Both the position numbers and the translations under genes were made by a program. From the NCBI GenBank assembly GCA_006384855.1, contig VCJN01003541.1, positions 62,001 through 126,000 of the forward strand: DNA of 64,000 bases, written 5' to 3'. Positions 22,860 through 63,656 of this stretch are shown here, in pieces. The notes beneath the pieces are model-generated. The model worked only from the letters and a program-made list of their open reading frames with translations, made no database searches and was not told where the DNA came from. The stretch is from Tetraselmis striata. Its lineage: Eukaryota; Chlorophyta; Chlorodendrophyceae; Chlorodendrales; Chlorodendraceae. Position 1 is the stretch's first letter. Each line of letters opens with the position of its first letter.

Positions 22860-24440
22860 TCATGGTCTCTTAGACGGGTAAAGGCGGGCCGGGGGGGGGG
22901 GGGGGGGGGGCAAAGGGGAAAAGGGGAGGGGGAGGGAAGGGTCGCACTTTTGCTCCGGCGACGAATCTCCCGTAGCCGCTGCTTCTTCAGCAGAGTCGGC
23001 ATTGGGCGACTGCCCCAATGACTGTCCGTTCTCCGCGGGCGCGTTCGCCTTGCTGGGCGACTCGGGGTCGACGCAGTGGGTAGACAGCTGGATCGCGCGC
23101 TCTGAGAAAGTGAGCCCGGCGTATTCGTCGCCGGCCAAGGTCGAGGGGGGCGCGACGAGGGCGGCGGCCTTGCTGGGGCGGCAGGCGCTGACGGAGCGCA
23201 TCAGCTGTGGCTCGTAGTCGCGGGAGGAGACGCCAGCCAGCAGCGCCGAGCCGTACCAGATGGCCGCGTCCCAGCCCTGCACGCCCATCCAGCCCCAGCG
23301 GATCTCGGCGAAGGGAGCGGTGGCCCAGCGCCTGGAAAGGTCGGTCAGAGCCGCCCGGTCCTTGCTCGCCTGGTCCGGGTCCGCCGGCAAATCCTTGTCA
23401 CCTATTCCGAACGCTGACTTGAATGCCGAGAACAGCTTCTTGCGGCCGCTTTTTGACCGGCGCCGCGCGGGCAGTTCTGTCACACCAGGCTCCGCACCGC
23501 GCGGGCCCTGGGCAAGTAGCGGAGCGGTCGTCGGGGGAGTCAGCGCCGCAGGGTGTCAGCGGGTCATCCATACCTGACTGTTATCCAAGAGGCCACCGAG
23601 AGCGACATATATGTTATCCACATTTGCGAGCTTGAAACCCGCCGGCTCGTGATACGACCCCCGAAGGCACTCGGCGAGCGAGAGTAGAGGGGAAGGGGGT
23701 GGGGGGGGGGGTAACCTGCTCGCCTAGGATGCCCCGCAGCTGCTCGATTTCTTTGTAGTCGAGCGAGCGCGAGCCGTCGGTGTGCTCCAGCACGCGCTCC
23801 ATCACCACCTGCGCCTTGTCGGCCTTCCCCAGCCCGTGCAGCAGCTGCGCGTAGTCGCCCAGCGCGCTGACGGCCCGCTGCCCCATCGGCCCGCCCGCCT
23901 CCCACTGCCGCACCGCCGAAAACATCGCCGCCTCCGCCTCCTCCCACCGCCCGCACAGCGCCAGCGCGGCGGCCTGCCCGTGGTACGCGGTGGCGGCCAC
24001 CGACACGTCCAGGTACTGCAGCTCCAGCTCCGCGCTCTTCGCCACCGCCTGCAGGCGGGGTCGCGCCATGGCCACGGGCAGGGTTAGGGCTTGGCGGCGG
24101 AAACCCCATTTCAGCGAAGAAACACCATACATTCTACCTAACGCCCTGTACGCCAGGACCCGTCCGGAACTGCTGGAATAAATGCCCGCCAGTCCGAAAG
24201 GGCTCCAACGGATCGCTTCGTGGCAAAACACCGCGGCGAAGGATTGTGCTTCCTAACAGTCATGGGAACCCGAAAGCCCTCCAGCCTGAGCTCGTCAGGC
24301 CATCCTCCATCAAGTGGGATCTGCTGGCACCAGACTGCATTCGACGTTCCGTACGGGTAGGGGGGGCTAGGTAGGCAGCAGCGGACCTCAAACCACATTG
24401 CGCATTGTTACATGTCTTCGCGATCACACAAAAGATCCAT

Positions 24441-24472
<32 letters not shown>

Positions 24473-27400
24473 TGTACATACTATGTAGAGAGAACCATAT
24501 AATCTCCCACACACCAGATACCGTACAAAATTCGAAACGGGTGCTGGTGCTGGTAGAAATACAGTAAGTATAACGCTAATACAAACCTGCCCTGCCTGGC
24601 AGAGGTCACATGTATACAAAACCAGTGTGGACGTACCCATAAGAAGTATAGCTTGATTACTGGGCTGGCGCGCAGCCTATTAGAACAGTCGCCATAGTCC
24701 TGCGATAGTTTGTCTGCATTTGATCTCAGGCAGGCCGGGCAGCAGCTCCTAATTCGCAGTGCCCTTGTAACCGCATCTAGCTAATGTTCCTACGGGTACA
24801 AGCAGGCACGCCCACTTTGGGGCTACATAGTAAGGAGTTCCCATCGGTGCGTCGGACCCAGTAGATGTAAGACACATCATAAACTCTAACTTAATTCGGG
24901 GGCCGCAATTGTCTGACGGCAAAATTGTCTGACTCCCCGTGATGCCAGCTATGATGGCAGGGACAGCAAGATCTCGTGTGCAGTGGCACGCTGTGTCAGG
25001 GTCCTGAGGAACAAAAGGGGGGGGGGTGGGGTGGGGGGGGGGGGGGGGGGGGCGGAGGACAAACCTCGTCAAAGTGGCCTAGCGCCTCGCTGTTGTTGCT
25101 GCGACGCAGCTCGAGGCAGCCGGCCAGGATGTGGGCGGCGGTGAGCTGGATGGTGGCGCTCAGCCGGCAGAGCGTCAGGTCCGGCCGGCCCAGCGCGAGG
25201 CTTTGCCGGCGCTCCCGCACGCGCGCCGAGCCGCTGGCGCTGCCTCCCTGGGCGCTGCCGCGGCCCGAGTTGCCGGGCCTCACGTCCGCCTGCGCGTCGA
25301 TGCGCGACAGCACCTTGGTCTGCACCTTGACGGCGACGGCGATGGCGGCCTCCGCGGCCTCCGATTTGTTCATCGCCACCAGGCACACGGCGCGCGCGCA
25401 GTGCAGCTGCGCCTCGAGCAGGCTCATGGCCAGGCTGCTGTGCGCGGCCATGGAGGGCGCGCTCCTGTCGGGGCGCTTGTCCTGCCGCGCGGCGTCCAGC
25501 GCCTCGGCGGCGCGCTCCAGCACCTCGTGCGCCGGCAGCACCTGCCCGTCGTCGTACAGCGAGCGGCCGAGGTGCCACAGCGTGATGCTGCGCCCGATGG
25601 GCGTGCCCACGAAGCCCGCGGTCGCGGCCATCGTGCGGCACAGCGTCACGCGCAGCGACGACGGCATGTGCTCCGCAAACATGGTGGGGTGCTGCACCAT
25701 CGGGTCTGTCACCAAACGCCCGCACAGGAAGGCAGCTGCTCAGTCGGCGTCATCCGGCAATGCGCCCCAGCCGTCGGCATGCAGGCCATCAACTATAGGG
25801 TTACTCTAGCGTACCAAAGGACAAACGCGGCATCCATCCGGCTAGGGTTCAGCTACAGCCCCAACGCAAGCAGCTGTGGCGAGAAGGGGGGAGGGGAGGG
25901 GGTGAATTATCCAGGTTCAGGCGCCGATGCCTGGGGTCTATTGTGGGTCAGACAACGCCTTCCATCGCCCACGCCTGCGGGTCCCCGTAGAGAGGGCCGA
26001 AGCAAAAACCCTGAGACACTAGGCTGCTCTCTCTGATGCGACTCCTTACTAGTTACGGAGCCTCTCCGCCTGCCCGCTCTTTCCTTGTCCAGCACATAGG
26101 GTATGGGGGAGGGAGGGGAGGGGGTCGCACAGAGGTAGGAGGCCAGCCAGGCGGCGCAGGACTGGTCCAGGATGCGCTCCTGCGACCAGTACTGCACCAT
26201 CCAGGACAGCGGCATGTTGCGGTTGAGCATGTACAGCCCCGACACGGGCGCGCCGTGCTGGATTGCCACCGCCGAGTGCGTCAGCGAGCGGCCGCAGATC
26301 TCCAGCATGCTGCTCACCGCCTGCGCACCAGGGATGCGTGGGGGGGGGGGGGGGGGGGGGGTCGAATCTATCCAGGTTTTTAACCAAGTCAACTGGGCAA
26401 GTCAACACCTTCATGTTACATGAGACCCCATAATATACATATATGTATATATACATAGATGCATGGATGGATTTATATGTGTATACATTTACGCACATAT
26501 ATACACATGTATGCATCTGTTTTATATATAATATGTGTGGGTATTTACATTAAATACATTATAACTGACGTACATATATATGTATGCATATGTGCAACAT
26601 ACACATTATACATGGCATAGATGTATATGAATATGTATAGAATATCCGTATTACCCTGCTGCTGGCAAACCTCAATCATTGACGCATGTACACTAGGTAA
26701 AGTGGGTTGAACCTTGGAAACCCTAGCCAAAGACCAGGTCAAGGCTGAAAATGGGAAACCCTAGATAAAACCCTTACATTCTCTTATGGGTGGGGGCCGC
26801 CATCCGTGTGGACGGACTCGCAGTCCCACTGCCGCGAGGCGGGCACTCACCGTGGTGAACAACTCCGTCAGGCGCGCGCTGATCTCGCTGACCACAATGA
26901 GCGCGCGGACCACGCGGTACACGGAGGGCTGCAGGTCTGAACGCGCCGGAACTCCGGTCGTACTTGAGCAGGCCGCACTCCAGCATGCAGAACAGCGCGC
27001 CGGCCGTGGAAGATAGCCGCGCGCCGTTGCTGGAGGCCAGCATGTGCAGCGCCGTGGGCATGTCAAACTCAAACGAGGGCAGGAACGACAGCACCATCAC
27101 CGCGTCCTGCGGGGTGGCGAGGTGGGGGATGGGCGCTCAGTCAGCACGAACGGCATCGCAGCATGGCAGCCCCATCACCGTGGCGGTTTCAAAGCTAAGC
27201 TTAAAATAGAACCCCTGGCAGACTGCTTAGGGTTGAAGGGTGATCTTCTAGGGTTTGAATGGCGATTCAGACATCATAACCGCATGACCTACTTCAGGGA
27301 CTTCTGTAGTCGACGTCACTATTAATCATACATAGCTACCCCTATTATAAGCCTCAAATTGGGCGTGCATGTAGCCCCATAAGAACCGCCTTCGCTATGG

Positions 27401-30400
27401 TTCCGCCCCTGTCCCACCTCTGGCAGGCTCTTATCCGCAGTGTTCTTATAATAACCGCGACGGCGCCCATAAAAAAGACAGTTTCTAAATGGACTCCTGT
27501 AGTAGACGGCATTTACAAAAGACCACATCACGCTGTGCTGTAATGATAGACGGTCTACGGGTGCCGACCCGACTATAACAACCCATTTTTTGCCCTATGA
27601 AATGTCGTGCTAGCAAATCTTCGAAACCCTCATGATGGAATTGTGATGTGCCTCATCTGAAATCGGACCAATAAGAACATGGCGCGTTCTTATATTTTGG
27701 TGCTTATAGTCGGGGCGGCTTCCGTACTTCCATTGGTTTCATTGCTATTTGCTAGCCCCCCGGCCCCCCTACCCACCCCCCAACCGAATGAAGCGGATGC
27801 GTTTGTGCCGGCTGTCGCTCACCTTGATGCGAGTTGGCGTGTAGGCGAGCAGGGAGATGACGGCCTTGGCGACCGCGCTCTTGAGCGTCTGCCGCGCATC
27901 CAGCACCGACTTGCGGCCGCCGCGGACGGAGCGCACGGGGTCGGCGACGGTGGGGCCCGTCTTGGTCGCAACGCCGGTGGGCGCGACCGGCAGCCCGCTG
28001 TCCCCGCTCTTCTGCAGCTTCATCGCCATCGTGGGCGGGATGCGGCGCTTGAGCACGGCCGCCGCCTGGTCGGGGGTTATGGCGCCGCTGTTGAGCGCGG
28101 TGCTCAGCATCTGCAGCGCCAGGGGGTTGGACTCCAGCGCGGACGCGAGCGCCGGCAGCCGGTCGCCCACGGCAGCGCGCACGGCGCCGTGCATGCGGTC
28201 GCGCAGGATGGCGGCGCCCCGCTCGGGGGAGGCGCTCAGCCTGTGCGTGCGCAGGAACCAGGACCCGCTCGAGCTCTCGCCGATGTCCAGCTCCGTCTGG
28301 GCCGTCAGGATGATTTGGACATGGGTGCGGCGCGTTCTTGTCATCAGCTTTGGCAGGTCCGCCGTGCTACTGCGGGTTTAGTGGGCCACAGTGGGGGGGG
28401 GGGGGGGGGGGGGCGGTCAATCGCACCGTTCTGCGCCAAGCTGCCAGCAAAGGTGCAAATGGGAGAGCGGGAGCAAGAAGCACGGGCAGAGCAAGGGTGA
28501 GGTGGGAGGGGGGGGGGGGGGGGGGGGGGGAGGGGCAACCTGGCCTGGTCGAGGATGAAGCAGATGAGCTCCACCAGCGCATCGGCCTCGATCTCGTCCT
28601 GGAGCAGCTGCATGTTGACGTGCGTCAGGACGATGCCCACGCGCTGCACCTCCAGTTCCTGCGGGCGGGTGGCACAGGGCAGCGGGGCGTCAGCAGGGCC
28701 GTTGTACGCCGGCACAGGGCGTGGTCTCCACGCAACCGGGCAGTCGGGGCCGACCGGGTACGCAGGGGGGGGGGGGGGAGGAGGGGGCACCGAGCCAACG
28801 CGCGTCTCAGGCGAGGCGTGGAATCCCGCAGCGGACATTCGCAGCCAGTGCTTCAGGCGCTGCTTCCCCGAGCGGCGCGGCCCCTCCGAGGCCATGCAGT
28901 ATGGGTCCGCGAGCAGGCCGGTGGCGATGAGGTCCGCGGCCTCGGCGGCGGTGTTGGCGGTGTGCAGGTCCACCCGGCACACGCTGTGCCAGTGCCGGGA
29001 GCGCAGGAGCTGCTCGGTGGCCATTGCAGCCACAACGCTCTTCCCTGCAGCGATGGAGGGACAGCCCCGATTGCCACTCAGCACGCTGATGCCATCCTTT
29101 TTGCACACAGGTAACCAGAGTCTACAGTCAGTGGCATGTGTGTGTGTATATGCACTGACGAGGAGACACACGAATAGATACAGATGCGCATGCTGCACAG
29201 ACATGGACATCTATGCATTTGGATAGAGGCACACCCAGCCACACACATGTTGGCAAACCCTAATCCCTAAACACCTCAATTGGGTGGCGTTGATGGTGAC
29301 CTCATTGCCTTTTGCCTTATTTGTGACCACAAGCTAAACCCTAAATTGCCTCTGTAAGCCTTAGGCCACACAACAAAACCAGTTCAAAAACCCTGAAAAC
29401 ACCCAGCCTTAACCCTAAATAACCTATACAAGCCCTTACCCACAGAATAGACCCAGCCCTAATCCCTGAACCAGACTAACCAAAAACCCTAAATATCTAA
29501 AGCCCTAAATCACCAACCCTAAACTACAAAACCCGCATATTTCTACCCGATCGACTGTTAATCACCGTCCCATTCATGCGTGCCACGCGACCTCAAGAGC
29601 CTGGGTCATGCGCACAATGGGCGAGCGTGCAGGCACAGCTGGTGCATGCGGCCACGATAGAGAGAGGGAGAGAGGGAGAGGGATAGAGAGAGAGACCTTG
29701 TATGGAGCTGTAGATTGCGAGAGGGCATCACGGCATCCCAATCAGGTAAGAAGCCAGAGCCCTAACCCATTCTAATATATTTCTCATCGGTATCCTTGTT
29801 GGGGGCGGTCACAGATACGGCTCTGACCCGTGATCACAACTCGCAAGAAACATTGCTGGGGATTCGCAGGCCCAAAGAGTAATAAAAGTGTATTGCAACA
29901 CCGAGTTGGCACATTGTGAAGTTTACGTGGTGTGTTCTGATAGATTCCCAGATAAATGGAGCTTTTCTCGGTTTGCAGGAGGAGAGAAGAGGAGAGGGAA
30001 GGAGGGGGGTGGTGTCAGCAACAGCCATAGATAGCGAGCGCAAAGCACGGTTGCGGCAAGTAAACACGCGCGTGTACACGTACGGTACATACGTCTAGTG
30101 CCGAGGCACGAGATGGCAGTTGCGCGCAGAGCCCCAAAACAGGCGCCACAGCATGCAAGCCCGGAGAGTGTGCGCCTCGCCGCGCGCACCTTCTCCCGGC
30201 CCCGCAACCAGCACGAGCATGCCGCTGCGCTCCGGCTCCGACCGGCAGCTGCCGGCCAGCTCCTCAGCCGCACCGGCGGAGTGGCTGGCGCCCGGGCCGC
30301 TGGCGAGCTCCATTGACGTGCGGCCGGCCGCACCGTCGGCTGTGCTGCGCTGCGACGTGAAGAGCTGCAGGGGGCAGCCAGGCCAGAGCGCTCAGGACCG

Positions 30401-32183
30401 ACCACACCGCACCCGGGTACCAGGCCTGCTGTCTGCACGGAAGCCTCGGGGCAGACCGCCTCGCAATCAAGCTGGCCGCGTCCTGCCCACCTTTATTCGA
30501 CACGCTGGCATGGGCGCTGTTTACCAGCCCACATGCCGCACAACCCCTTCAACCAACGGCTGCCCGCCCACCCTCGGCCCCATGGCAAAACAACCACACC
30601 TCTGGCTCTAAGGCAGGGCGAAGCCACTGAACCGGGGCCCGGCTCTACCAAAACGATACCAGGCAGCCACCACGTGTTGGGGCCCCTCACGTGCTTGCCC
30701 ATCTCAAGCAACCCGACCCCTGCAGTCAGAGCCTCCCAGGGCTTATCAGGACGCCTACGTGTTGGGTTGGGATCGTGCAAGATTGCCCACCGGGCGCTAC
30801 TGATCGACTCTGTGTGCGCGTGTGTAGATGTGCAAGTGATGTGGTTTGATGTAATGGGGGGTGAACTGAGGTGACAGTGTGTGTGTGGTGTTTATAAAGG
30901 GGGGGGGGGGGGGGGGGGGGGGGGATTCCCTCACCGCTTTGATGTCCTGCGAGCTGGTGCCAGCGCAGCGCAGCAGGCGGCTGAACGACGCGGGCAGGGA
31001 ATCCAGGGGCGGGAACGCCATGTCCACCTCCAGCACGTTCACCATGCCGGCCGGCGCGAACTTGTGCAGCTGCGCCTCGACCAGCTGGCGGTGCGTCTCC
31101 GAGGCGCCGAGCTTCTGAACCTGGATGGCCCCGGCGCGGATCAGGCGAAGCCTTAATTTGGAACAATGTACTACAGCACCGGCAAAGAGGTCCGCAAGCA
31201 TGCCGACTATGCTGAGTATGGTGAAGCTTGTGAGAATGGACCCTGGCTGTCTTTGCTGCCTTGGCGTGGCGCAGCTCCCAGTTTCCCTCAACATGACACC
31301 TGACCTCTTCGCAGCCCGGCAAAGGAGGGGGAGGGGAGGGGGAGGGGGGGGGGGGTTCACCTCTGGGTAGTCGCCCAATGTGGCGATGGCCGCCCAGAAC
31401 GCCGCCCAGCTGACCTCCTCGTCCTGCAGCTGCAGGTGCCACATTACGCGCAGCGACTTGTGGCGCAGCTGCATGTGGGGGCCCAGCGCCTGGGGAACAG
31501 GCACGCGTTCAGCGGGTCACAGCCATGGAGTGGTCGCCGCCGCCATCACACAGTCCACAGGCTGCCGCTGCCTCCTCTTCAGCGCAGGCTGCATCGAGGC
31601 TAGCGGGCACCGCCCAGGGGGAGGGGGGACAGAGGGGGGAGGGGGCACCTGGTTTGTGACCCACATGGCGACCTCCTGGTCGACGGCGTTGTCCCAGTGG
31701 CTGGAGGCCATCCCCTCTGGCGGCTCAAACCCAGAGCTGCTGTATGGCTGCGCGGAGGTAGCAAAGCCGCGGGCAAGCTTAGGCGCCGCCCCTCCCCAGG
31801 CAGCAGCAGGAGCTCCTTCATTCCCCGCACCCCGTCCCCCCCCCCCTCCCCCCCCTCCTCCTCTGGCTGCCGTCCTGCGTGCAGCCATGATGGAGGTTGG
31901 CCTGCAAAGCTGCGTGACTCCGACTCACCGGGGTCGGCGAATTCGTCATGGTGGCAAACTCCCGGCAGTCGCACAGGTACTGCACGCCTCCAGTGCCCTG
32001 CAGCTGCGCCCGTATGTGCGCCGCGCCGTCCGTCCAGCTGTCGCCCCGGCGCTCCGCCGCCCCGCCCGGGGCCAGCTTGAGCAGGCTCTGGCGTAGCGAC
32101 TCAAAGGTGGCGTTGTCGTCTGGGGGGTCCTTCAGCAGCCGCCGAAGCCACCCGCTGCAAATGGCAGCGAGTGAGGGGGTGAA

Positions 32184-32220
<37 letters not shown>

Positions 32221-33162
32221 CACCACGAGCCAGCGATCGGCGGCGCAGCCAGGCGTGAGCGCGAGCTCAGTGCTGCGGGTCAGGGCTGAGGTGGGCCCGC
32301 ACCTATATGAGAAGATGGAAAAGAAGTAGCACATCTCCCATGCCAGGTGCAGCAGCTTGGAGGCCTAGATGCGTGTCGTCCCGCAGGTCGCTGAGCGAGG
32401 CGGGCGGCGCTATCAGTTGCCACTCGCCTGTTAAAATGGTGTCAGGAAAGCAAGAGAAGGGGGGGAGAGTTCCCTATCGAGTCTCGCCCTGCTTACTACT
32501 TGATGCGGGAAGGAGGGGCTTCTGTGGGTTGGGGATCACGCAGGGGGGGGGGGGGGGGGGGGCTCACCTGCTGGCCAGGACGGCGGTGTGGATGTCCACC
32601 GCCAGGATCAGCAGCTGCATGCAGTTGGTGCGGTTGTACCACGCCTCCCGCGCCAGGCCGAGCGCCTGGATGAGCTGCGCCGCTAGCCGCTCCTGCGGCT
32701 CCGGCAGCTCCATCGCGCACACCACCACCGCGGGCTGCCCATCCTGCAGACTGAGGATGGCCCCGGAGCCCGCGGCGAGGTCGTTGCGGATGGGGCTGCC
32801 AAACAGCTGCACGGAGTGCCGGCGCACCCGCGACCCGGAGGATTCCGCCATTCCCTGTAGGGGGGAACGGCAGGCAAGTGTTGGAAACACAAAAGAATGA
32901 GAGCGTCTCGAGGCAAGAAACAGGGGGGAGGAGATGGAGCCAAAGACGCCCTTTGGGTGAACGAGGGGGAGGGGGGACTGGGGGAGGGGGGGGGGGGGCA
33001 GGACTGTGGCCACTATGTCCACTATCCGATGGGAGCTGCCCTGCTGAGCACCAGTTAGGTAAGCGTCGGTCCAAGCTAGCATTCGCAGCTTGTCTGGAGT
33101 GATTTTAGCCCCGTATTTGAACAGTCTGGCGTAGCACAGGTCGTGCGGATAGAGTGGTGTGT
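22860..33162 (-). CDS. STAND (NB-ARC/NACHT-type) P-loop NTPase with C-terminal TPRs
   Basis: A 17-exon gene giving about 1475 residues. Exons: 33162-33005, 32854-32568, 32427-32303, 32154-31929, 31747-31649, 31489-31361, 31120-30935, 30364-30190, 29044-28791, 28658-28540, 28369-27823, 27106-26851, 26320-26131, 25705-25065, 24048-23716, 23630-23574 and 23507 to about 22860. Phases agree at nearly all junctions from exon 4 on. The Walker A motif AGPGEGKS (about residue 458) forms across the exon 8/9 junction; Walker B is LICFILDQ (about 583); sensor-like VQIILTAQTE (about 605); GLPL-like NPLAL (about 667); then a winged-helix-like region (LSFLPSFEFDMP). TPR-like helices follow (LWHLGRSLYDDGQVLPA, ALGDYAQLLHGLGKA). 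STAND ATPases are signalling switches, often in immunity or cell death. The N-terminal about 400 residues are unrecognised. Apparent frameshifts: exon 3 (about 32360) and exon 12 (about 26941). The true 5' end and last exon end are uncertain; a further donor GTGCGACCC lies near 22950. Confidence 0.8.
24437..24470 (+). repeat. (CA)n microsatellite in an intron
   Basis: About 14 CA units inside intron 14 of the STAND gene. Confidence 0.9.
29240..29535 (+). repeat. Degenerate telomere-like CCCTAAA cluster in intron 8
   Basis: About ten copies of AACCCTAA/CCCTAAA-like words spaced 7-40 bases apart within intron 8 of the STAND gene, all with the C-rich strand on plus. Single AAACCCTA words also occur in introns 12 and 11 (26721, 26755, 27227, 27250). 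This is the plant and trebouxiophyte telomere unit, or the plant telo-box. Confidence 0.6.
32184..32219 (-). repeat. 36-base C homopolymer in intron 3 of the STAND gene
   Basis: The plus strand reads 36 consecutive G; the sense strand is therefore C. The intron is about 148 nt, so the run is a quarter of it. It ends about 28 nt before the acceptor TTTGCAG. Confidence 0.9.
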
Positions 33163-33169
33163 CTGAGAA

Positions 33170-33327
33170 GGGGGGGGGGGGGGGGGGGGGGGGGTCCCTT
33201 GGGCGGGACGGGACTGTGCGGGTGTGCGTGGCATCTGCTACGCTATCGCGCGAGAGGACGCGACGAGGATTTGCCTATCGAGTTGGAAAGACGAGGACCC
33301 GCGCGGCGGGGTTTGGCGGAGCGACCG

Positions 33328-33354: not shown

Positions 33355-33358
<4 letters not shown>

Positions 33359-38012: not shown

Positions 38013-38044
<32 letters not shown>

Positions 38045-42790: not shown

Positions 42791-42846
42791 TGATGATCGG
42801 GGGGAGGCAGCGCAGAACGTTCTGCGCTGCCTCCCCCCGATCATCA
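42791..42846. repeat. 56-bp perfect palindrome
   Basis: Arms of 28 bp with no spacer, centred on AACGTT; each arm contains a GGGGGGAGGCAGCGCAG block. The inner MITE copy lacks it, so it was gained by the outer copy. Confidence 0.9.
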
Positions 42847-43081
42847 GCGGCATTTCGAGCCGCACCCGTCCCCAATTGGCCACTGCCCACTGCCACTTGA
42901 CCCACCCCTGCCGCCACTACCCGCTACCCGCTGATGCATGATATTTGTTATGTCCTCTCGTGGCACGTAGGATGGTAGTTCCGCTCGCGCTTTGCGGCAC
43001 CAACGGGGGTCGGCCGATAAGGGTGCCCGCGCCTCCGGTTTCCTAGACGCTTATCTCTAGACGCTTTTCCCTAGACGCTTA

Positions 43082-52990: not shown

Positions 52991-52999
52991 GCGGGTGAG

Positions 53000-54251: not shown

Positions 54252-54815
54252 GATATCAGTGTTGGTACACTATACTGCATACATGTACAATGTAGCTAGG
54301 GTATGGCTTAGTACTTTAGAATATGTCATCATTGATGGTCCGTGCTACTAGCACAGATCGCGCGCACTAGGCACCGCATCGCATGCCTACATGCGTGCGG
54401 TGCCCCAACGGGCTTGGTCACTTCTCTATAGCCAACCAATATGCTGCGCTTCATAATCCCTCCATCCCACAATCTCCGGCCCACGCTGGGACCCGCACAT
54501 GGCGGGTTGGTAGGGACCAGGGTTGGATTGCAGTATCTATTATTGCACTGCAGACTGCAGAAACTGCAGCCTGCAGTTTAGCTACTGCACTGCAGATTGC
54601 ATTACTTCCCGAAAAGGGGTAGCAGTGCAGTTACCCAAAGTGCCCCAAATATATACCCTTCACTGTCCCGCCCTTCCTTGTAATCAACAGTTTTAGTGCT
54701 ACTACAGCCTGGCTGCACTGCAGCCTGCAGTACTGCAGCATGCACTGCAGCCTGCCTGCAGCCTGCAGTACTGGAAAGTGGAATGTAGCCGAACCCTGGT
54801 AGGGACGTTGCTTAC
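54252..54815 (+). repeat. Dispersed repeat A, copy 1 (carries a nested hAT MITE)
   Basis: 54252-54517 plus 54807-54815 align with the reverse complement of 60480-60756 in CSN5 intron 2. Shared blocks: TCAGTGTTGGTACACTATAC, GTACAATGTAGCTA, GCTACTAGCACAG, CACATGGCGGGTTGGTAGGG. Similarity is about 80-85 percent by eye. The 281-bp insertion at 54518-54798 is absent from the 60 kb copy. Confidence 0.8.
54518..54798. mobile_element. hAT-type MITE, 281 bp
   Basis: Ends CAGGGTTGGATTGCA and (inverted) CAGGGTTCGGCTACA, 11 of 15 identical, flanked by an exact 8-bp duplication GTAGGGAC (54510-54517 and 54799-54806). The interior is packed with CTGCAG/TGCAGT words. The paralogous site at about 60497-60505 reads GTAGGGAC once on the minus strand. 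TIR start and 8-bp duplication are diagnostic of hAT. Confidence 0.88.
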
Positions 54816-54960
54816 AACAGTTCGGCATCGTCAGTGTCCTCGCCGTCGTTGCGTGACATGTTATTGTGGTATGAAAAATGATGTTTAATATGAAGTTGTA
54901 TGAAAGTGGATACTAATATTGACCCCAAATTTATGTGTACTAAAATTTTGAGTCGACCAT
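54812..54960 (-). repeat. Repeat E, copy 3
   Basis: The reverse complement has GTCGACTCAAAATTTT, CACATAAATTT, ATCCACTTTCATACAACTTC and the conserved start ATGTCACGCAACG, matching 13664-13790. Confidence 0.65.
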
Positions 54961-55030
54961 CAAACCGCCTCCATAAGTTCACATCACACTACGTGCAAAC
55001 CCTTCCCCCACCCCGCATAACGCATATCAT

Positions 55031-58000
55031 ACCGCATTACCGAGTTTTCCCGCCTGGTATAACATAACCGTAGCTCCGGTAGGGTTGGCCCCGATATGGG
55101 CAACCGCGCGCCACCGGGTGCAGCCGTCATAGTGACGGGGGTTCGCCCTTGGACGGTTGGGTACTTGGCTGAGGGCGCTGGGGCGTCCCTGCGTCGTGTG
55201 TGTTGTTGGGGGGACCCGTCGCCACTACCTGCCTTTTGGAGCCGCGTCGATCGGGCGTTTAATGGCCGGCCCTCGGCCATTCCGAAGATCGATCGTGTGT
55301 TGCAGCGGGATGGGCTAGTGCGCTTTGATGTGTATTATACCCAAGGGCAGGGTGCGCATGTCCGCGAGCGTTTACAACGTTTTGCATGCCGGTGGGGGTG
55401 GTACTTGCGGGAACACCGCTCGTACTGGGATCGCCACGCCGCCCGCCCTCCCCCTCCCTCCCACCCCCTGCCCTTTCCCCTCCCTCCCATGCCCGCCCAC
55501 CTGTGCGTTGCGACGCTTAATGTGAATGGGTTGTCTTCTAAGGTGGAGGATGTTGGCGCGTTGCTGATCGAGCGATCTGTAGATGTTCTGCTCATTCAGG
55601 AGACCACGGTTAGGGCGACCGATATGCGAGTGCGTTTTAATGGGTACTCTGACTACTATTCGTTCGGGGACCGCGTTGCATCGGAACGTGGGTGTTGTGT
55701 GTTAGTCCGGTCGCCGTACCGGGCGCGGGCAGTCGGCGCGCCCCACCCATGTTGGACCTGTGTCCGGGTGGGGGGAGGTTGCAGTGACTCCGCGGCCACT
55801 ATATTTATCTCGGCCTATTTGCCCACCGGCTCACAGGGGGAACCGTATCGGGACCGCCTGCGCGAAGAGTTGGCGCGGCTTCGGACGAGTTATCCGAGGG
55901 ATATGATCGTGGTGGGGGGGGATTGGAACATGGATGAAAGGGAGTTGACGGCTCTACTCAGGCGTTGGCGGTGCCTTCCCGGCGGTAAGCCCATGTGGCC
56001 GCGGGATGCATCGGCGCGCGAACGGGGTACTTGCCGAAGGGGCAGCTGCCGCGTTCTCGACCACTTCATCGCATGGCCTCCCACCATAGGCCCTCCCCCC
56101 CCTCTCTCGCCCTCGGCATGGGTGGACTACTCTTGGGACACCTCCGATCACTTCCCTGTCCTGTCTTCTTTCCCCATGGGCGCCATCCGTGAGGATGCCT
56201 GTCCACCTCCCCTGCATGAACGCCTGTCTGCAAGGTCCATTCCCAAACCGGCCCACGGTGACTCTCCCGCTGAATGGCCCAAGCCGTTCCACGATTTTGT
56301 CACCGCTAATCCGTTCGCGGTGCTCACCCCTCTAGATGACCCACCTGTAGACGGCGGGCCCTCGGGAGGGGGGGGATCCCTAGACACCGGCGCCGACCAC
56401 TTTATCCAGGCAATATGGTCGGCGGCGCGTGGGGTAGGGGCTGTTACCAAGCCCAGGCGCCGTGGCCTAGGGCCGCCGCTCCAACGGTCTATCCTAGGTG
56501 CGATTAATCGTCGGCGCATGGCCTTTATGGCGTGCCGGGGGACTAGGGGCCCTCGGGATGCCGCTCTAGCGTCGGCACATTATGCTACTGCACGGCATAG
56601 GGTCCGGACACTAGTACGTAATAACCGCCGCCGCCAGAGGGAGCGGGCCGTGCTAAAAGCGGTTCAGGATTTTAAGAAGGGTGGTGGGAGACGGGAGTTC
56701 TGGAAGTGGGCGCGCTCTCTCCGCAAGGGGCAGGGTTCATTCGAGGGCGCGAACGACCAGCCAGTACGCGATCCGGTATCGGGGGTACTTCATACCGAGC
56801 CGGGCGAAATAAATGCGTGCTGGGCGCGGCACTATCGGGAGCTGCTGCGTGACCCCCACCCCCTAGCACAACGGGTTGCGATATACCGTGCGGCGTGGGA
56901 ACACCGACACGGTACATCCCCACCCATTGCCCCCGCACTAAACGGGATTAATGGGCATATAACATGGGAGGAACTAGTCAAGGCTCTTAGGCGTTTAAAA
57001 AATAATAAGGCCCAGGGGCAGGATGGGATCACTGCAGAGGCTTTAAAATTGGCGATATACGCCCCGAATAGCCATTTTGGCAAGGCATTGCTGGCCTTAA
57101 TTAACGGGATATGGACTAAGAACTATATCCCCCAGCAGTGGCGTAGCTCGGCCATAGTATCGGTGCCCAAGAAAGGCGACGCGACCGTTATGGACAATTA
57201 TAGGGGTATTTCGATTATGGGTGCCGCTATGAAACTCCTTATGACCATCATTTCCCAACGCTTGCAAGACGTCTGCCAAGCTAAAGGGATAATCCGCCGT
57301 TGGCAAGCGGGTTTTATGCGGAATGAGGAGGGCCCCATGCAAGTCGCCAGCTTGTTCGATATCGCGGCTCGTCGCCAAGCGGCAGGTCTACCCACGTACG
57401 CGGGTTTTATTGACTTTAGGAAGGCATATGACACCGTACCTCATGAGCTTTTATTCCTAAAACTACAAGCCATAGGAGTTTCGGGTCATATGCTTACCTT
57501 CATTAAAACTTTATACAGGGATAGTATGGTACGGGTCAAGACAGGGGTGGCCCCGGGAACACTATCAGACCCCATACCCATAGAGCGTGGCCTCCGACAG
57601 GGATGCCCCGCTTCCCCCATCCTATTTAACATATTTATTAACGATATATTCGATGGGGTAGAACATCTAGGATGTGATGTACCAGGGTGCACTGACACAT
57701 TAGCGGCAAGGCAACCACTAAGGGTGCCAGGTCAGTTATACGCGGACGACGCTGTTGGTATCACAGGCTCGTTCGATAACCTGCATGCCATGTTCGCCCA
57801 CTTCTCGCAGTGGGCGGAGGATCATTTTATGGGGTTTGGGGTACTTAAGTGTGGGGTGATGGCATTAGGCCGATATTCCGACGAGACCGCGTTACGCGAA
57901 CAAGCTGCCCGATGGCAGCTTGGGGGGGAACGGGTACCGGTTGTAAATGAATATAGGTACTTGGGTACGGTCATTAAGTCAGATTTAGGTATGCAACACA

Positions 58001-59375
58001 TAGTAGACGACCGGGTTAAGAAGGGTAAACGCGCTATTGAGGCGCTCGATTCGGTATTAGTCGGTGGACGGGACATAATCCCTATTAATGTGCGTGTGTC
58101 GGTTTTTAAAACCTGTGTACTGCCGGTTTTAACTTATGGGTGTGAAGTATGGGGCATGGATAGAACTAGCGGCGCAAATAAATTACAAACTGTACTCAAT
58201 CAGTGCTTGCGTTGCCTCATTGGGGTAGGTAAAAACTCCCCTGGGGTAGCCACTGCACCGATGATGCGGGAATTGGATATTGCGCCCATAGAGGCTACGG
58301 CCGCTGCGGCACGGACTCGGGCGTTCCTTAAAGCATCCGACTTGAATACATGTATAACCCATTTAGTAGATCAGCCAAGTCGGGCGCGCCCTAACACGTG
58401 GACGTCGGGGACTGTGCGGTGGTTAGATCGACTAGCTAGGGCGAACGTAGGGCTAGCTGAGGGGGCGCACCTTCCACTTGAGTGGAGGTCACTAGCCGCG
58501 CGCGATGCCGCTAAACTAGTAAAGGCATCGGTGTGGGCGCGTTACGAATCGTCGGTATCGTTAGCACGCAATAACACCTGGGGTATATATGTCCAGGCGT
58601 CCTATGCGTCAAACCCGTTGCCACAGTACGGTGTGGGTGTCCCCGCGGGGGTTGTGGCCGGGTTGCACATTATGATACAATTACGCACCCGAGTATTTCC
58701 CACTGCCCGCCGATTGGCCCGGATTCATGCCATGCCTGAGCGGTTCCTTGAACACTGCCCTGCATGTGGCGGAGGTGAATCTGAGACTATCGAACATATG
58801 TTGGTGGAGTGCCCGCGGTGGGGGTATCACCGTCATATTTTTGGGTTGTTAGTTCCGGAGTTCAGGGATTTTATTAGTAGTCAGGTTAGTGCGTCAACGC
58901 CTGAGGACTTAACTGCCTTTATTTTGGGCGGGGTCCCCCCCTCCCTTCACGGCGCCCTGGATTTTACTGGGAATGGGAAATTTTTCCAGCTATGGCGTCG
59001 GGCCCTCCCTCACATTGCCTTTTTTGTTGCACATGTATCGCACTCCCGAAATGCTTTGCTCCGCGGGTTGGGGCTTGCCCCAACTCGCATTACTCGAATG
59101 GGCCGACGCCCAAACGGGTAGGGCGGACCTTTCGTGGTCAGTGCCGGGTATTTTGATGGCAGTGTTTTAGACGGTGATCCAACAGTGTTGGAAATTCCGT
59201 CACTGGCCTCCAATTAGTCTTGCGAAATGCTTCGGCAATTTGCTTGAAGACTATAACGGAGCGTCGCCTACCCAGGGCTTTCCGTAACTGGATTGCTGCC
59301 TAAACGGCCGTCGTAGAGACGCTGCAAGGGTTTCACTGGTGCCAGTCCTGTCCCGGGGGCGAAAAAAAAAAAAAA
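55031..59375 (+). mobile_element. Full-length APE-type non-LTR retrotransposon (LINE)
   Basis: A 4345-bp insertion bounded by an exact 10-bp target-site duplication CGCATATCAT (55021-55030 and 59376-59385), with a 65-base 5' leader, one intact ORF (55096-59121), a 3' region of about 240 bases and a 14-A tail (59362-59375). The intact ORF and exact duplication point to recent insertion. A truncated relative lies at 7297-7481. The 3' flank is repeat G (59480-59545). Confidence 0.92.
55096..59121 (+). CDS. LINE ORF: AP endonuclease, reverse transcriptase, zinc knuckle
   Basis: An uninterrupted 1341-codon frame, ATG at 55096. Residues 1-130 form an unrecognised N-terminal part followed by a proline-rich linker (PPPPSHPLPFPLPP). 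The AP-type endonuclease runs from about 137 (ATLNVNG) through LLIQETT (about 165), GGDWN (about 274) to SDHFPV (about 350). The reverse transcriptase spans roughly 620-960: NYRGISIM (about 701), FIDFRKAYDTVPHELL (about 771), RGLRQGCPASPILFN (about 832), catalytic YADD (about 882) and YRYLGTVI (about 953). A C-terminal CX2CX9HX4C knuckle starts at about 1222. The enzyme nicks target DNA and copies its own RNA onto it. All catalytic motifs look intact. Clade not assigned; no separate upstream ORF1 lies within the duplication-bounded element. Confidence 0.93.
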   Translation: MGNRAPPGAAVIVTGVRPWTVGYLAEGAGASLRRVCCWGDPSPLPAFWSRVDRAFNGRPSAIPKIDRVLQRDGLVRFDVYYTQGQGAHVRERLQRFACRWGWYLREHRSYWDRHAARPPPPSHPLPFPLPPMPAHLCVATLNVNGLSSKVEDVGALLIERSVDVLLIQETTVRATDMRVRFNGYSDYYSFGDRVASERGCCVLVRSPYRARAVGAPHPCWTCVRVGGGCSDSAATIFISAYLPTGSQGEPYRDRLREELARLRTSYPRDMIVVGGDWNMDERELTALLRRWRCLPGGKPMWPRDASARERGTCRRGSCRVLDHFIAWPPTIGPPPPLSPSAWVDYSWDTSDHFPVLSSFPMGAIREDACPPPLHERLSARSIPKPAHGDSPAEWPKPFHDFVTANPFAVLTPLDDPPVDGGPSGGGGSLDTGADHFIQAIWSAARGVGAVTKPRRRGLGPPLQRSILGAINRRRMAFMACRGTRGPRDAALASAHYATARHRVRTLVRNNRRRQRERAVLKAVQDFKKGGGRREFWKWARSLRKGQGSFEGANDQPVRDPVSGVLHTEPGEINACWARHYRELLRDPHPLAQRVAIYRAAWEHRHGTSPPIAPALNGINGHITWEELVKALRRLKNNKAQGQDGITAEALKLAIYAPNSHFGKALLALINGIWTKNYIPQQWRSSAIVSVPKKGDATVMDNYRGISIMGAAMKLLMTIISQRLQDVCQAKGIIRRWQAGFMRNEEGPMQVASLFDIAARRQAAGLPTYAGFIDFRKAYDTVPHELLFLKLQAIGVSGHMLTFIKTLYRDSMVRVKTGVAPGTLSDPIPIERGLRQGCPASPILFNIFINDIFDGVEHLGCDVPGCTDTLAARQPLRVPGQLYADDAVGITGSFDNLHAMFAHFSQWAEDHFMGFGVLKCGVMALGRYSDETALREQAARWQLGGERVPVVNEYRYLGTVIKSDLGMQHIVDDRVKKGKRAIEALDSVLVGGRDIIPINVRVSVFKTCVLPVLTYGCEVWGMDRTSGANKLQTVLNQCLRCLIGVGKNSPGVATAPMMRELDIAPIEATAAAARTRAFLKASDLNTCITHLVDQPSRARPNTWTSGTVRWLDRLARANVGLAEGAHLPLEWRSLAARDAAKLVKASVWARYESSVSLARNNTWGIYVQASYASNPLPQYGVGVPAGVVAGLHIMIQLRTRVFPTARRLARIHAMPERFLEHCPACGGGESETIEHMLVECPRWGYHRHIFGLLVPEFRDFISSQVSASTPEDLTAFILGGVPPSLHGALDFTGNGKFFQLWRRALPHIAFFVAHVSHSRNALLRGLGLAPTRITRMGRRPNG

Positions 59376-59479
59376 CGCATATCATCCACATCATATCATC
59401 CCTAAAAATCCACCGCATCTCCAAATTTATTCCATTTCGTCAATTCTCACCGAGGGTCAAGCACTACAGGTAGTTCTCT

Positions 59480-59545
59480 GTTATTCAGCGTTTTCTGTTC
59501 GGGTCACAGGACCCCAGGTTCATTTTAAAGTACACGAGTAAGGAT
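59480..59545 (+). repeat. Dispersed repeat G, copy 2
   Basis: See 11030-11100. It lies just beyond the 3' target-site duplication of the LINE. Confidence 0.6.
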
Positions 59546-59848
59546 TACATGCGCTGGTGTGGCCGCGTGCTCGCTGTAGCAGCCCTGCTCTAACTCCATC
59601 CATAAAAGATCGTGCCAGTACGGGTACTAAGAATTAAAAGGTCGCGCGTCGTCCTGGACAGCGCAGCATCACAAGTCGTCCGCCCATCACGAGGGGGCGG
59701 GGCCAACCTTCACCTTGCGTCTCTTCTCCCGTTTTCCTCTGGACCTCTCGGTCCTGTTACAAATAACAGATCTCCTTGCAGGTAGACAGCTCGAAATCGC
59801 GGACTCCTGGCGCCAGCAGGCGTGAAACAGCGCACGGACGGACCCGCG

Positions 59849-62624
59849 ATGGCGTCCGCGTCGGAGCAGGCCAAGGCGGCCCAGCGGCGCTGGGAGCTGG
59901 AGAACAACGTGCAGGAGATCAGCGAGAGCGACGCGCTGTTCAAGTTCGACGACCAGGCCAACGCGCAGATGCAGCAGCAGCGGCCCTGGAGCACGGACCC
60001 CCACCACTTTAAGCAGTGCGGACAGCCCTCGTGCCCCCTCCCCCCCCCCCCCCCCTCCCGCCCAAACCTGCTGCTGGGGGAATTGCCCCCGCGACCTGAG
60101 CCCCGCCACCCCCCCCCCCCCGCCCGGCCCAACTCTCCCATCTTTCCGGTGGACAGTGTCAAAGTGTCAGCCCTGGCGCTGCTGAAGATGGCCATGCACG
60201 CGCGGTCTGGAGGCAACATCGAGGTCCGTCTTCCTGGCGGCCAGAGCGCACCCTCCCCCCCCCCCCTGGCCCCTCGGGGACAGCAGAGCTGAGGCCGAGA
60301 GCCAGAGGGCACAAGATGAGGAAGCTGTGGCGTAGCAGCACTGCATGAAGCCATAATAGCGCATAGGCCAGGAAAGCAACGAGCTGGGTATGCAGAGAGA
60401 GAGAGAGAGAGGGAGAGGGAGAGAGTCCTCCCGCGTGGAGGTGCCCACCCCCGCCCTTCCCCCAGCCTCCCCCCCAAAGGTGGTATTGTGCGCAGCGTCC
60501 CTACCAACCCGCCATGTGTGGGTTCTGGCGCGAGCCGGGGACTGTGGGAGGGAGCGTGAAGCATGGAGAGTGGCTGGTTGCAGAGAAGTGACCACGCCCG
60601 CCTGGGCGCCGCACGCATCCAGGCAGGCGATGCGGGGCCTAGTGCGCGTGCGCTGTGCTAGTAGCGCGGGCCATCAATGTTGACATGTGCTAAAGTACTA
60701 AGGCCATACCTTAGCTACATTGTACATATGCAGTATAGTGTACCAACACTGATGCCAACAGGCAGCAATACATACTCCCGTGGGAGCGCCGCTGCTCATT
60801 CAAGCCGCACTGGCCTGGCAGGTGATGGGGATGCTCAACGGGAAGGTGATGGGCGACACCTTTGTGGTGATGGACACCTTTGCGCTGCCGGTGGAGGGCA
60901 CGGAGACCCGCGTCAACGCCGCGGCGGAGGCGTACGAGTACATGGTGCAGTTTGTGGACACCCAGAAGGCCGTCAACCGGAAGGAGAACATCTGCGGCTG
61001 GTGCGTCGGGCGTGCATGTATGCGTGTGTCTGGTGGGAGGGGGGAGTCTGGATGCCCCGCAGCGGTGCCCGGACGTTGCCCGCACCCTCCACCTCCACCT
61101 CCACCTCACTTCCCTCCGCCTTCCGCAACCCGGTGCCCCCCTTCACAGGTACCACAGCCACCCTGGCTACGGCTGCTGGCTGTCCGGCATTGACGTCGGC
61201 ACACAGATGACGAACCAGCAGTACCAGGAGCCCTTCCTGGCGATTGTCATCGACCCTCACCGCACCATGGCGGCCGGCAAGGTGGAAATCGGCGCCTTCC
61301 GCACCTACCCAGAGGTGTGCCCCTCCCCCCCCCCCCCCCCCCCCCCAAACTCCCTCTGGCCACCCCAACTTTAGGGCTCCCTATCAGGAGTCTGACGCAC
61401 GCGCGGGGGCCTGCTGCAGGGCTACAAGCCGCCGGATGAGCCGACGTCAGAGTACCAGACCATCCCGCTCAACAAGATCGAGGACTTTGGCGTGCACGCC
61501 AAGAGCTACTACCCGCTGGACATCAGCTACTTCAAGTCCTCCCTGGACGCGCACATGCTGGACCTCCTCTGGAACAAGTATTGGGTCAACACGCTCAGCG
61601 CCTCGCCGCTCCTCGGCAACCGCGACTTCCTGGTCGGCCAGATCCAGGATCTCGGTGAGCATCCCCCCCCCCCCCCCCCCCTCCTCCTGAATTGAATGAA
61701 GCTGCAATGGTTATATTGATAGATGGTAGTAGCTCTAAGGGTGCCGACGCACGAAGAAGAACGAGAATGTTTGCTGTAGAAATCGGGGTGCCGGCGAACT
61801 GTTCTTAACTCCGTGATAAATCCATGTCTGATCCGTGATAAATCCATAGTCTGATGTTGACCCAAAAAGGGCATGGCACGTTCTCATGAATGCGCGCTTC
61901 TACGTGCGTCGGCACTCGTGTGACTCTCCGGGGTTTATTATTTTGTAATCGGAGGTGGGGGGGTTACACATCACACCACTCCACGTAGGGCTCTTCGCCC
62001 GGGCATACAGCTTGCCTGTATTCTTACGCCGGCCTGATGCCAACGATTAAGCCGACCCGCTCCGTGTGTGCCAGACCCCGGTTGTGATACTCTGTCAGTC
62101 GTATTGAGCGATGGGCAATAAACTGCCAGTCTCCGATGTAATGGAACAATGCTGGGCATTGCCGCCCGTTTGAGATCTCTTCATCACTTGAGATTCGCAA
62201 GGAGCCCAGCACGGCTTTCTGCCGGCGGTGAAGGCGCGATGTCATTGACGCGCTGCACGCCGACCTCCCAGGTGAGAAGCTGGAGCAAGCGGACGCGGCC
62301 GTGTCGCACAGCGGGCGGATGGGGGGCTTCCTGACACCGCTGGACAAGAAGGCTGACGAGAACCAGCTGGGGCGCATCACTTGCGATTCGTCCAAGATGG
62401 CGGTGGAGCAGGTTAAGGGGCTGGCGAGCCAGGTGCGGACGGCGGGGGCGCGGTGGGGCGGCATACGGGGCGAGGTGAGGGGGCGGGGCTATGCGTATGC
62501 TGACAGTGCGCGGTGGCTGCTGCGCTTCGTGCGGCTGCAGGTGGTGAAGGACATGCTGTTCAACTACCGCCCGAAGCTGATGGGCAGTGCGTGCGCTGGT
62601 GAGGCGGCGCCAATGGAGATGTAG
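59849..62624 (+). CDS. CSN5: COP9 signalosome subunit 5 (JAB1-type deneddylase)
   Basis: Complete gene. Exons 59849-60015, 60157-60223, 60822-61000, 61149-61314, 61420-61654, 62272-62432 and 62541-62624 sum to 1059 bases (352 residues), with all phases consistent and a size normal for the family. CSN5 is the catalytic subunit that removes NEDD8 from cullins. JAMM zinc-protease residues are present: the catalytic Glu ends exon 2 (GGNIE, followed by VMGMLNG), and [17 protein letters not shown] supplies the two His and the Asp. Other landmarks are [52 protein letters not shown] and [18 protein letters not shown]. Introns 4 and 5 begin GTGTGCCCC and GTGAGCATCCCC, then long C-runs. Intron 2 hosts repeat A and intron 5 a MITE-like element. 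Intron 6 (108 nt) is in frame and without stops. Confidence 0.97.
60391..60425 (+). repeat. (GA)n microsatellite in CSN5 intron 2
   Basis: GAGA array grading into GGGAGA units. Confidence 0.9.
60480..60756 (-). repeat. Dispersed repeat A, copy 2, in CSN5 intron 2
   Basis: Reverse complement of 54252-54517; retains the unoccupied hAT target GTAGGGAC. Confidence 0.8.
61739..61917. mobile_element. MITE-like inverted-repeat element in CSN5 intron 5
   Basis: The left end GGGTGCCGACGCACGAAGAA matches the inverted right end GAGTGCCGACGCACGTAGAA. 179 bp, no coding frame. No clear target-site duplication was found, so the superfamily is open. Confidence 0.5.
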
Positions 62625-62819
62625 GGCGAGGACTGCGTGGGGAGCTGTAGCGGGGGTGTGTCTGGGGGCGCTGCAGCGGCCTTCCTGGCTTTGCCGGTCG
62701 GATGGGGGCACAGGCGGTCTGGCCGCGCGGGGGTAGGGATGCGTCACAAGCACCTGGGACTGCCGTGCGATGCTCCAACTGTATGGTCGCATGCGTCTGC
62801 GGCCCGGCAGTGTGCTCTG

Positions 62820-62824
62820 TTACA
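62820..62824 (-). terminator. Possible TGTAA signal of the Mini-III gene
   Basis: TGTAA on the minus strand only about 10 bases after the stop; unusually close, so uncertain. Confidence 0.25.
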
Positions 62825-62831
62825 TGCGCCG

Positions 62832-63656
62832 TCAGGCCAAGTAGCCCAAGTGCTGCATCAGCTCCTGCAGCCTCACCGGCTGCGTCACGTACAGGTAGCC
62901 CACCTGCGGCCGTGCGCGCACCAGGAATCAGCCAGGCGGACGGAGGGACATGCATGGGGGGATGGGACAGGGGGGCGGCGGTGCATTGGGGGGGTGGGGG
63001 CGGGCACCAGTGTCTCCAGGCACGTGGCGTTGCGGTACAGCATGCGGCCGTCGTCTCCCTGCGCGCCGCCGGCCCCCCGGAAGCGCTTGGGGAAATTCTG
63101 CAGTTTTGCATTGCGCGCCCAGCGGACGACGTCCAGCTCATCCGGCCGCAGGAAGCCGCTGTCCATCAGATCCGTGAGGATCTCGCTCTGAGTGGCGGCA
63201 AAGGGGGGAGGGGATGAGGGCACGAAGGTTGCGTGGGATGGAGCTGAGGGTGGGGGAGGGTGGGGAGGGGGGGGGTGGGGGAGTTCAACCTGTGCCTCAG
63301 CCCTGCAGGCCCCCTCCACATTGCTGCTGTACACTGTGTTCCGCGTAGGCGGGTGGAAGAAGAAGCGGCGCATGTACAGCTGCGGGGTGTGGCATACACA
63401 TCTCACCTCAGCCATCACCACGGCCCACCTCCCGCAGGCACTGTTTCATGTGAATGTTGCGTGTTGCAGGGTCCGGGGGGGACCAATACCTCCCATACCG
63501 CGTCCCCCATGAACGCAAAATGTGTGGCGTTCCACCTCGCCCGACTCGACTTGCCCTGCAGGTCTGGGGGCGGCGGAAGGCTGGCCTCCGCCATGTCGGG
63601 CAGGCTGTCCACGCTGATGGAGCTCAGGGCGCCATCGAACGAGCCTGGTGGCGGAG
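62832..63656 (-). CDS. Mini-ribonuclease III (RNase III domain without dsRBD), 5' end unresolved
   Basis: Exons (minus): about 63656-63490, 63379-63290, 63187-63008 and 62903-62832 (stop 62834-62832), all phase 0 at the junctions. RNase III landmarks in order: FAFMGDAVWE/LYMRRFFF (the family signature GDAVYE-LYVR, with catalytic Asp), VEGACRAEAQ/SEILTDL, a LRPDELDVVRWARNAK block (usual form E-x-x-x-x-RGRNAK), and YRNATCLETL/VGYLYV ending in VRLQELMQHLGYL. No double-stranded-RNA-binding domain follows, the mark of Mini-III; in plants such enzymes work in chloroplast rRNA and intron RNA processing. A transit peptide would be expected upstream: an ATG at 63908 opens a basic, Ala-rich stretch, but its phase does not fit the 63656 acceptor. 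Convergent with CSN5, 207 bases apart. All three donors carry C-rich starts (GTATTGGTCCCC, GTTGAACTCCCC, GTGCCCGCCCCC). Confidence 0.88.

Follow-up and report, generated by a model that had tools for sequence, protein, structure and literature searches.

What places a pure cytosine run just inside the 5' splice site, on the sense strand, of one intron after another? The question is raised by a 64-kb stretch of the genome of the marine green alga Tetraselmis striata (positions 62001-126000 of its contig, C2848, in an assembly of 224,097,584 bases and 2903 contigs; the whole stretch is called the window below), in which an initial annotation had described cytosine (C) runs close to the donors of most introns. 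To my knowledge, donor recognition beyond the GT consensus has been little studied in algae, and the enhancers known to flank donors are chiefly of a U-rich or G-rich kind. The position and strand specificity of the runs is confirmed here at three levels: in curated introns of the window, in introns predicted from a larger sample with the runs masked, and in word counts over the whole genome. The window was picked for showing the pattern, hence its local frequency lies above that of the rest of the genome.

Tracts at the donors of the window

Homopolymers of at least 7 nucleotides (nt) in the window number 30 for C and 32 for G, as compared to 5 for A and 6 for T. The curated set comprises 25 introns placed by protein continuity in four genes: six in CSN5, three in a protein kinase gene, 13 in a large minus-strand gene and three in an RNase III-like gene. 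A C-run of at least 8 starts within 40 nt of the donor in 13 of the 25 introns, and a run of at least 6 in 16, while no intron has a G-run of at least 8 in the same zone and a single G6 is found there, in intron 61001 (introns are named by their donor position). The pattern first described is real, but its proportion of about 17 in 28 gives way to these counts. One further candidate intron with the donor 32302, whose 5' end is free of C-runs, was excluded because the short exon preceding it is uncertain; counting it would give 13 of 26.

Transcripts support the donors of two of these genes. Manual splicing of seven exons yields a CSN5 protein of which all 352 residues are matched by the transcriptome protein P0001 (100% as listed; reading the sequences gives one L/V difference), and all six junction peptides are present in P0001. 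The kinase is matched by P0121 over 93% of the query (100% as listed; by reading, two substitutions and a different C-terminal tail), again with all three junction peptides present. MMETSP is listed as a source for both proteins, and since they hold all the junction peptides, nine introns are supported by independent transcripts. Five of the nine carry a C tract, C12 to C22 in length and starting at +7 to +32. Four of these, on the plus strand like the whole of CSN5, are its introns 1 (60016..60156, donor GTGCGG, C16 at 60040-60055, +25), 2 (60224..60821, GTCCGT, C12 at 60255-60266, +32), 4 (61315..61419, GTGTGC, C22 at 61325-61346, +11) and 5 (61655..62271, GTGAGC, C19 at 61663-61681, +9), and the fifth is the plus-strand kinase intron 8706..8904 (GTGTGA, C18 at 8712-8729, +7). 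The four supported introns that lack a tract are the kinase introns 7990..8153 (longest run C3) and 8283..8477 (C4), both on the plus strand, and CSN5 introns 3 (61001..61148) and 6 (62433..62540), both of which are G-rich at the 5' end (G 0.55 with a longest G-run of 6, and G 0.60, respectively). Intron 60224 had been missed initially, and 61001 is an exception additional to those listed at the time.

The best matches of CSN5 include P0011, a transcript protein of Tetraselmis chui (taxid 63592), and P0002, which is closely similar and at 86% to the query. Compared with P0002, P0011 has other residues in place of a segment that matches the end of exon 4. Alternative splicing may account for this difference; in the window, the C22 donor follows that exon.

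In the large minus-strand gene, tracts follow the donors 32567 (intron 32365..32567, GTGAGC, C20 at 32543-32562, +6), 31360 (31121..31360, GTGAAC, C12 at 31344-31355, +6), 30934 (30365..30934, GTGAGG, C26 at 30899-30924, +11), 28790 (28659..28790, GTGCCC, C14 at 28765-28778, +13), 28539 (28370..28539, GTTGCC, C23 at 28508-28530, +10), 25064 (24049..25064, GTTTGT, C20 at 25033-25052, +13) and 23715 (23508..23715, GTTACC, C11 at 23701-23711, +5). Intron 31648 (31490..31648, GTGCCC) has C5 and then C6 (+10), and intron 26130 (25706..26130, GTGCGA), formerly listed among the C-run donors, has a C-rich 5' end with a longest run of only 5. No C-run is seen at the 5' ends of introns 31928 (31748..31928), 30189 (29045..30189) and 27822 (27107..27822), and no long one near the donor of 26850 (26321..26850, C3); the G-rich stretch reported on the sense strand inside intron 31928 is indeed there. 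The RNase III-like gene, with a Pfam match below the curated cut-off, has its minus-strand introns at 63380..63489 (C7, +9), 63188..63289 (C9 at 63267-63275, +15) and 62904..63007 (C7, +14). The runs at 31648, 63007 and 63489 are thus only 6, 7 and 7 nt long instead of the 8 to 30 first given. Sixteen of the 17 donors named initially could be placed by protein continuity; the remaining one, 33004, would fall upstream of the ATG at 32851 and is a poor donor (GTCCTG). Nor are GTGAG and GTTAC the typical starts, as they account for 6 and 1 of the 25 donors, with GTGCG at 5 and GTGCC at 3.

A homology search with the large minus-strand gene returned nothing at E <= 1e-20. Its introns are therefore placed solely by continuity of the reading frame, as are 16 of the 25 curated introns in all. 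Two spots in this gene are irregular, namely the junction after 32567, the one intron of the 13 with an unsure acceptor, and a frame slip in exon 27106-26851, on which the placement of intron 26850 depends. The apparent frame shift in this exon lies around 26950-26937 on the minus strand and is possibly an assembly indel.

Homopolymers invite the suspicion of a sequencing or assembly artefact, and it is true that exact homopolymer lengths are uncertain in the assembly and that exon 27106-26851 looks frame-shifted. However, such errors would be blind to donors and to the sense strand, whereas the flanking exons match transcripts and matching places occur on both strands of many contigs; I consider this explanation scarcely credible.

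Strand and position beyond the window

In order to leave the window, introns were predicted with a coding-potential gene finder in 354 kb of sequence (the window plus 290 kb), with C- and G-runs of at least 6 masked. The additional stretches are not a random draw: they comprise the beginnings of contigs taken at regular intervals of contig number, a 50-kb piece of one contig, and sequence by which four gene-bearing stretches were extended. After exclusion of introns of at least 1500 nt, of those with either exon scoring at most 8, and of exons losing a strand conflict, 121 introns remained, 20 in the window and 101 elsewhere (19 gene models), all of them predictions. The seeds and splice-site weights of the finder derive from the window, including its C-run introns (with runs of at least 6 masked). 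Set against the curated genes of the window, the finder recovers most exon ends, but it extends exons across introns 28790 and 62433 and skips an exon of the kinase gene. As it reads through some C-run introns (28790, and polyproline stretches elsewhere), it probably undercounts them.

Among the 121 introns, runs of at least 8 in the first 40 nt are C in 19 cases and G in 1, as opposed to 15 and 24 in the interior and 4 and 1 in the last 40 nt (Fisher p = 2e-5 for the contrast between first 40 nt and interior). The 101 introns outside the window taken alone give 10 C and 1 G in the first 40 nt, 14 and 22 in the interior and 1 and 1 in the last 40 nt; the 20 window introns give 9 and 0, 1 and 2, and 3 and 0. 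C exceeds G near the donors in 7 of 21 gene models, and the reverse is seen in 1. Outside the window, 10 of 25 C-runs of at least 8 begin before +40, where 3.2 would be expected if they were uniformly placed (p = 0.0004). The strand asymmetry cannot stem from the finder, to which a masked C-run and a masked G-run are indistinguishable. In a smaller run of the same finder, which is trained on its seeds only, 7 of 80 non-window introns had C and none had G in the first 30 nt. An earlier finder with iterative training was dropped, as it drifted to antisense shadow open reading frames and called the plus strand over a known minus-strand gene; its counts point in the same direction (C 10, G 1 in the first 30 nt of 128 introns with a score above 10).

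By this one method, the window is clearly richer than the remainder (9 of 20 versus 10 of 101 introns, p = 0.0005), so the statement that most introns carry a run holds only locally, even though 10 of 101 is likely too low.

The contrast between intron ends and interiors bears on a transcription-linked origin, in which G-runs on the template strand (through G-quadruplexes or pausing) or strand-specific damage and repair would create or keep C tracts on the sense strand. The sense-C bias at the 5' end of introns would fit, as would the intragenic G/C tracts of Caenorhabditis elegans, in which G lies on the non-coding strand in most cases (84 versus 47; PMC2211496). However, the interiors of the same introns show the opposite tendency (C 15, G 24), and that paper describes the C. 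elegans tracts as without positional bias inside introns. A transcription-wide strand bias, one of the causes first considered, was therefore rejected as the main cause, and a transcription-linked origin of any kind seems to me very unlikely.

Words were then counted throughout the 224 Mb on either strand, each pattern in reversed order serving as its control; a word match alone is no proof of a donor. The word CAGGTGAG followed by C10 occurs 48 times (control 0), and followed by G10 7 times (control 6). For MAG/GTRAG (the slash standing at the exon-intron boundary), a spacer of 6 nt and C12 give 202 matches (control 11), as compared to 63 for G12 (control 23) and to 20 for a C12 decoy in which GT is changed to TG (control 2); with a spacer of 15 nt, C12 gives 165 (control 11). 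MAG/GTGCG with a spacer of 6 nt gives 282 for C12 (control 6) and 59 for G12 (control 28). The ratio of C to G after donor words is roughly 2.5 to 7, and the claim that the runs are always on the sense strand, which the curated introns bear out for runs of at least 8, becomes genome-wide a bias that is not absolute, with G12 above its reversed control. Counts on the acceptor side (C12 108, control 66; G12 188, control 28) are not used as evidence; they are confounded, since CTGCAG is a palindrome and, among the G12 matches listed, many can be read on the opposite strand as a donor with a C tract behind it. At position 8101 of the plus strand of another stretch (L012), a C30 directly follows CAG/GCGAG in a predicted gene, possibly a GC donor with a C tract.

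Some of the matches are repeats. A dispersed family of TCGAAAGGTAAG followed by at least 10 C has 47 copies genome-wide (one at L008:2722) and makes up as many as 47 of the 202 MAG/GTRAG matches with the 6-nt spacer; a second family, GGTGAGTAGCGGGACACTGTG followed by a C tract, takes 7 of the 100 listed places of the 15-nt pattern, and a similar sequence occurs in L007. Introner elements are an intron-linked sequence feature in algae, and the two families, each with GTRAG and a C-run, would be in line with introns inserted as mobile units that carry the run next to their donor end. The likeness ends there: only 9 pairs among the 121 predicted introns are similar, being tandem duplicates or short internal pieces, the introns share no sequence apart from these, and the spacers between donor and tract are diverse among the matches listed. 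Introners were thus rejected as the general cause, the insertion origin proposed initially is unsupported in this set, and I regard it as highly improbable. Tandem exon-intron units are seen in a coiled-coil-like gene (L016, 1859-3036), where two introns of 216 nt are 100% identical.

Length class, C-rich zone and the proposed source of the tracts

Runs of C or G in the 354 kb fall off steeply in number up to a length of about 13, show a second mode at 20-23 and reach a maximum of 36, whereas runs of A or T end at 14. The C/G homopolymers are therefore a distinct length class, absent for A and T, with a sharp 5' edge and a ragged, C-rich 3' edge. In the sample there are 165 C tracts of at least 12 on both strands. 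Those in introns lie on the sense strand 18 times and on the antisense strand once within the first 40 nt, compared to 14 and 18 times elsewhere. When tracts of at least 10 are merged, the 3' flank is more C-rich than the 5' flank in 84 of 144 and less so in 44; in the 74 merged tracts without a donor-like word upstream, the figures are 40 and 26 (p = 0.004). Since this polarity is seen also where no such word precedes the tract, it is partly independent of splicing.

The tracts stand in a broader C-rich zone. With runs of at least 6 masked, the C content of 101 introns (21 curated, 80 predicted) is 0.40 at +7..16, where T is at 0.17, and falls to 0.29 at +57..76, and in 74 introns without a long run the words CCC, CCCC and TCCC are 3.2 to 4.3 fold enriched over the interior. 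For this and the following comparisons, the 115 of the 121 introns that are at least 100 nt long were used. Short C-runs are denser in their first 40 nt than inside, 1.7-fold for a length of 3, 2.6-fold for 4 and 3.9-fold for 5. Over these 40 nt, C and G content show a strong negative correlation (rho -0.75; interiors -0.28). Such a relation, partly automatic as it is for compositional reasons, would suit alternative C-type or G-type enhancers, as would the G-rich 5' ends of the two CSN5 introns that lack a tract.

From these observations I infer that the first 45 nt or so of introns form a C-rich zone of splicing enhancement, with the C tracts, lengthened by slippage, as its extreme, a reading to which I would give about even chances. 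After transcription, the C-rich RNA just 3' of the 5' splice site would be bound by a splicing activator, for which a poly(C)-binding KH protein of the PCBP/hnRNP K type or a U1-associated protein of the TIA/Nam8/RBP45 type are candidates, and the bound activator would assist the U1 small nuclear ribonucleoprotein (snRNP) in binding there. Slippage would lengthen the C/G homopolymers of this genome to about 20 nt, their preferred size, and directly behind donors such growth would be permitted or favoured with C on the sense strand; long tracts would be scarcer at the acceptor end, though short C-runs are equally common there. Of the roles put forward initially, the splice enhancer appears to be the best supported, by position, strand, the underlying C-rich zone and published precedent. 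An R-loop, which was also suggested, is expected with a G-rich rather than a C-rich sense strand.

The main rival is that the tracts are a functionless by-product of slippage. A C-rich zone after donors would be selected, or arise from a pyrimidine bias, long tracts would grow there from short C-runs, and tracts on the acceptor side would be removed as they disturb recognition of the 3' splice site. The density of short runs after donors and the bimodal run lengths agree with this explanation. What it does not readily give is the position, as the first and last 40 nt have about the same density of C-runs of 3-5, while runs of at least 12 C number 18 in the former and 4 in the latter (Fisher p = 0.0035; outside the window alone 10 versus 1, p = 0.01). 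Long tracts thus favour the donor end beyond the density of short runs, and seeds alone fail to explain this unless selection opposes tracts on the acceptor side. A functionless by-product is a real, if somewhat doubtful, possibility.

Several observations weigh against an enhancer role, and the first two of them favour the by-product. As many as 114 of the 165 tracts of at least 12 lie outside predicted introns, so that most tracts have no visible tie to splicing, although unpredicted introns will be among those places. C-run introns and others do not differ in their matches to the U1 consensus (5.4 versus 5.1, p = 0.53), nor, among the 115, in 3' splice-site pyrimidines, T content or intron length. 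The scarcity of G at +5 in C-run introns (10 of 19 versus 74 of 96, p = 0.045; p = 0.07 on an earlier set) is in favour of an enhancer, but the effect is marginal and partly confounded, as some tracts overlap +5/+6. About 90% of the predicted introns outside the window have no tract, so it is not required. G12 after donor-like words is likewise in excess of the reversed control (63 versus 23, 59 versus 28), and an early test free of gene models gives only a modest result (GTGAG within 30 nt upstream of tracts, 11 versus 4.5 expected). Finally, poly-C placed at +15 of SMN2 intron 7 after GCA, where it forms a GCACC motif, suppressed splicing (PMC8789036); poly-C close to a donor thus does not enhance splicing in every case.

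Two further ideas were set aside. The 3' splice sites do not differ between the two classes, which speaks against compensation for weak ones. Nor do G content and G-runs differ near the acceptor or in the neighbouring exons, where a G-rich partner able to pair with the C tract was considered.

Relation to known splicing signals

Pyrimidine tracts after the 5' splice site are found in about 20-40% of introns and are enriched in almost all of 22 eukaryotes; they are mostly centred at +15 to +25, have a mean length of 10-14 and are bound by TIA proteins, and in Arabidopsis RBP45d binds U-rich RNA and U1C (PMC2766253 and PMC9813592, respectively). The tracts described here resemble those of TIA-1/TIAR, yeast Nam8 and plant RBP45d in being sense pyrimidine runs soon after the donor, enriched within about 20-40 nt of it, in a minority of introns. 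The TIA-type likeness may extend to weaker donors, if the marginal +5G result is preferred to the U1 matches. They differ in being pure C, whereas the proteins of that class act on U-rich RNA, and in being commonly about 20 nt long, against a mean of 10-14 nt; the maximum is 26 among the curated donors and 36 over the whole sample.

A second precedent is provided by C-rich enhancers. Poly-C inserted at +10 of SMN2 intron 7 in a human minigene promotes inclusion of exon 7, as does poly-U, and the study points to PCBP1/2 (PMC8789036). C-rich motifs have also been tested as enhancers in human introns, where they hold three to four contiguous Cs, and hnRNP K at a chicken donor is cited (PMC2481429). 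Closeness of the C-runs to the donor is shared with these hnRNP K and PCBP1/2 enhancers, whereas in the alga there are long homopolymers at many donors in place of the three or four Cs of the human motifs.

Homopolymers far above expectation are also known from nematodes. C. elegans has 396 G/C tracts genome-wide that are guarded by DOG-1, and C. briggsae has tracts of 18-25 (PMC2211496). C is more often sense within C. elegans genes, too, and the tracts are unbiased in their location in introns, in contrast to the alga with 165 runs in 354 kb (at a lower length cut-off) that cluster by donors. Among the matches listed from the open-licence literature, none describes long poly-C tracts beside the donors of an alga, and while pyrimidine signals after donors are known elsewhere, pure C runs of such length in this place are unusual.

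A bolder version of the enhancer reading, which I think improbable, is that poly-C is a second, length-tunable donor signal read by a dedicated poly(C)-binding partner of U1, with changes in length acting as heritable dials of splicing efficiency. If true, it would be a eukaryotic counterpart of bacterial contingency repeats. In any case, pure C tracts on the donor side offer a natural, strand-controlled system for asking whether homopolymer slippage creates and tunes splicing signals, and a practical feature for gene prediction and for the design of transgene introns in Tetraselmis.

Three other features of the window may be recorded. Scattered TTTAGGG-like repeats, similar to plant telomeres, lie within a long intron at 29240-29520 on the minus strand, and a tRNA-Phe (GAA) of 91 bases is found at 42800-42890 on the same strand. 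On the plus strand, 55063-59118 is a single open reading frame of 1352 codons with endonuclease/exonuclease/phosphatase and reverse-transcriptase domains, which looks like a non-long-terminal-repeat retrotransposon.

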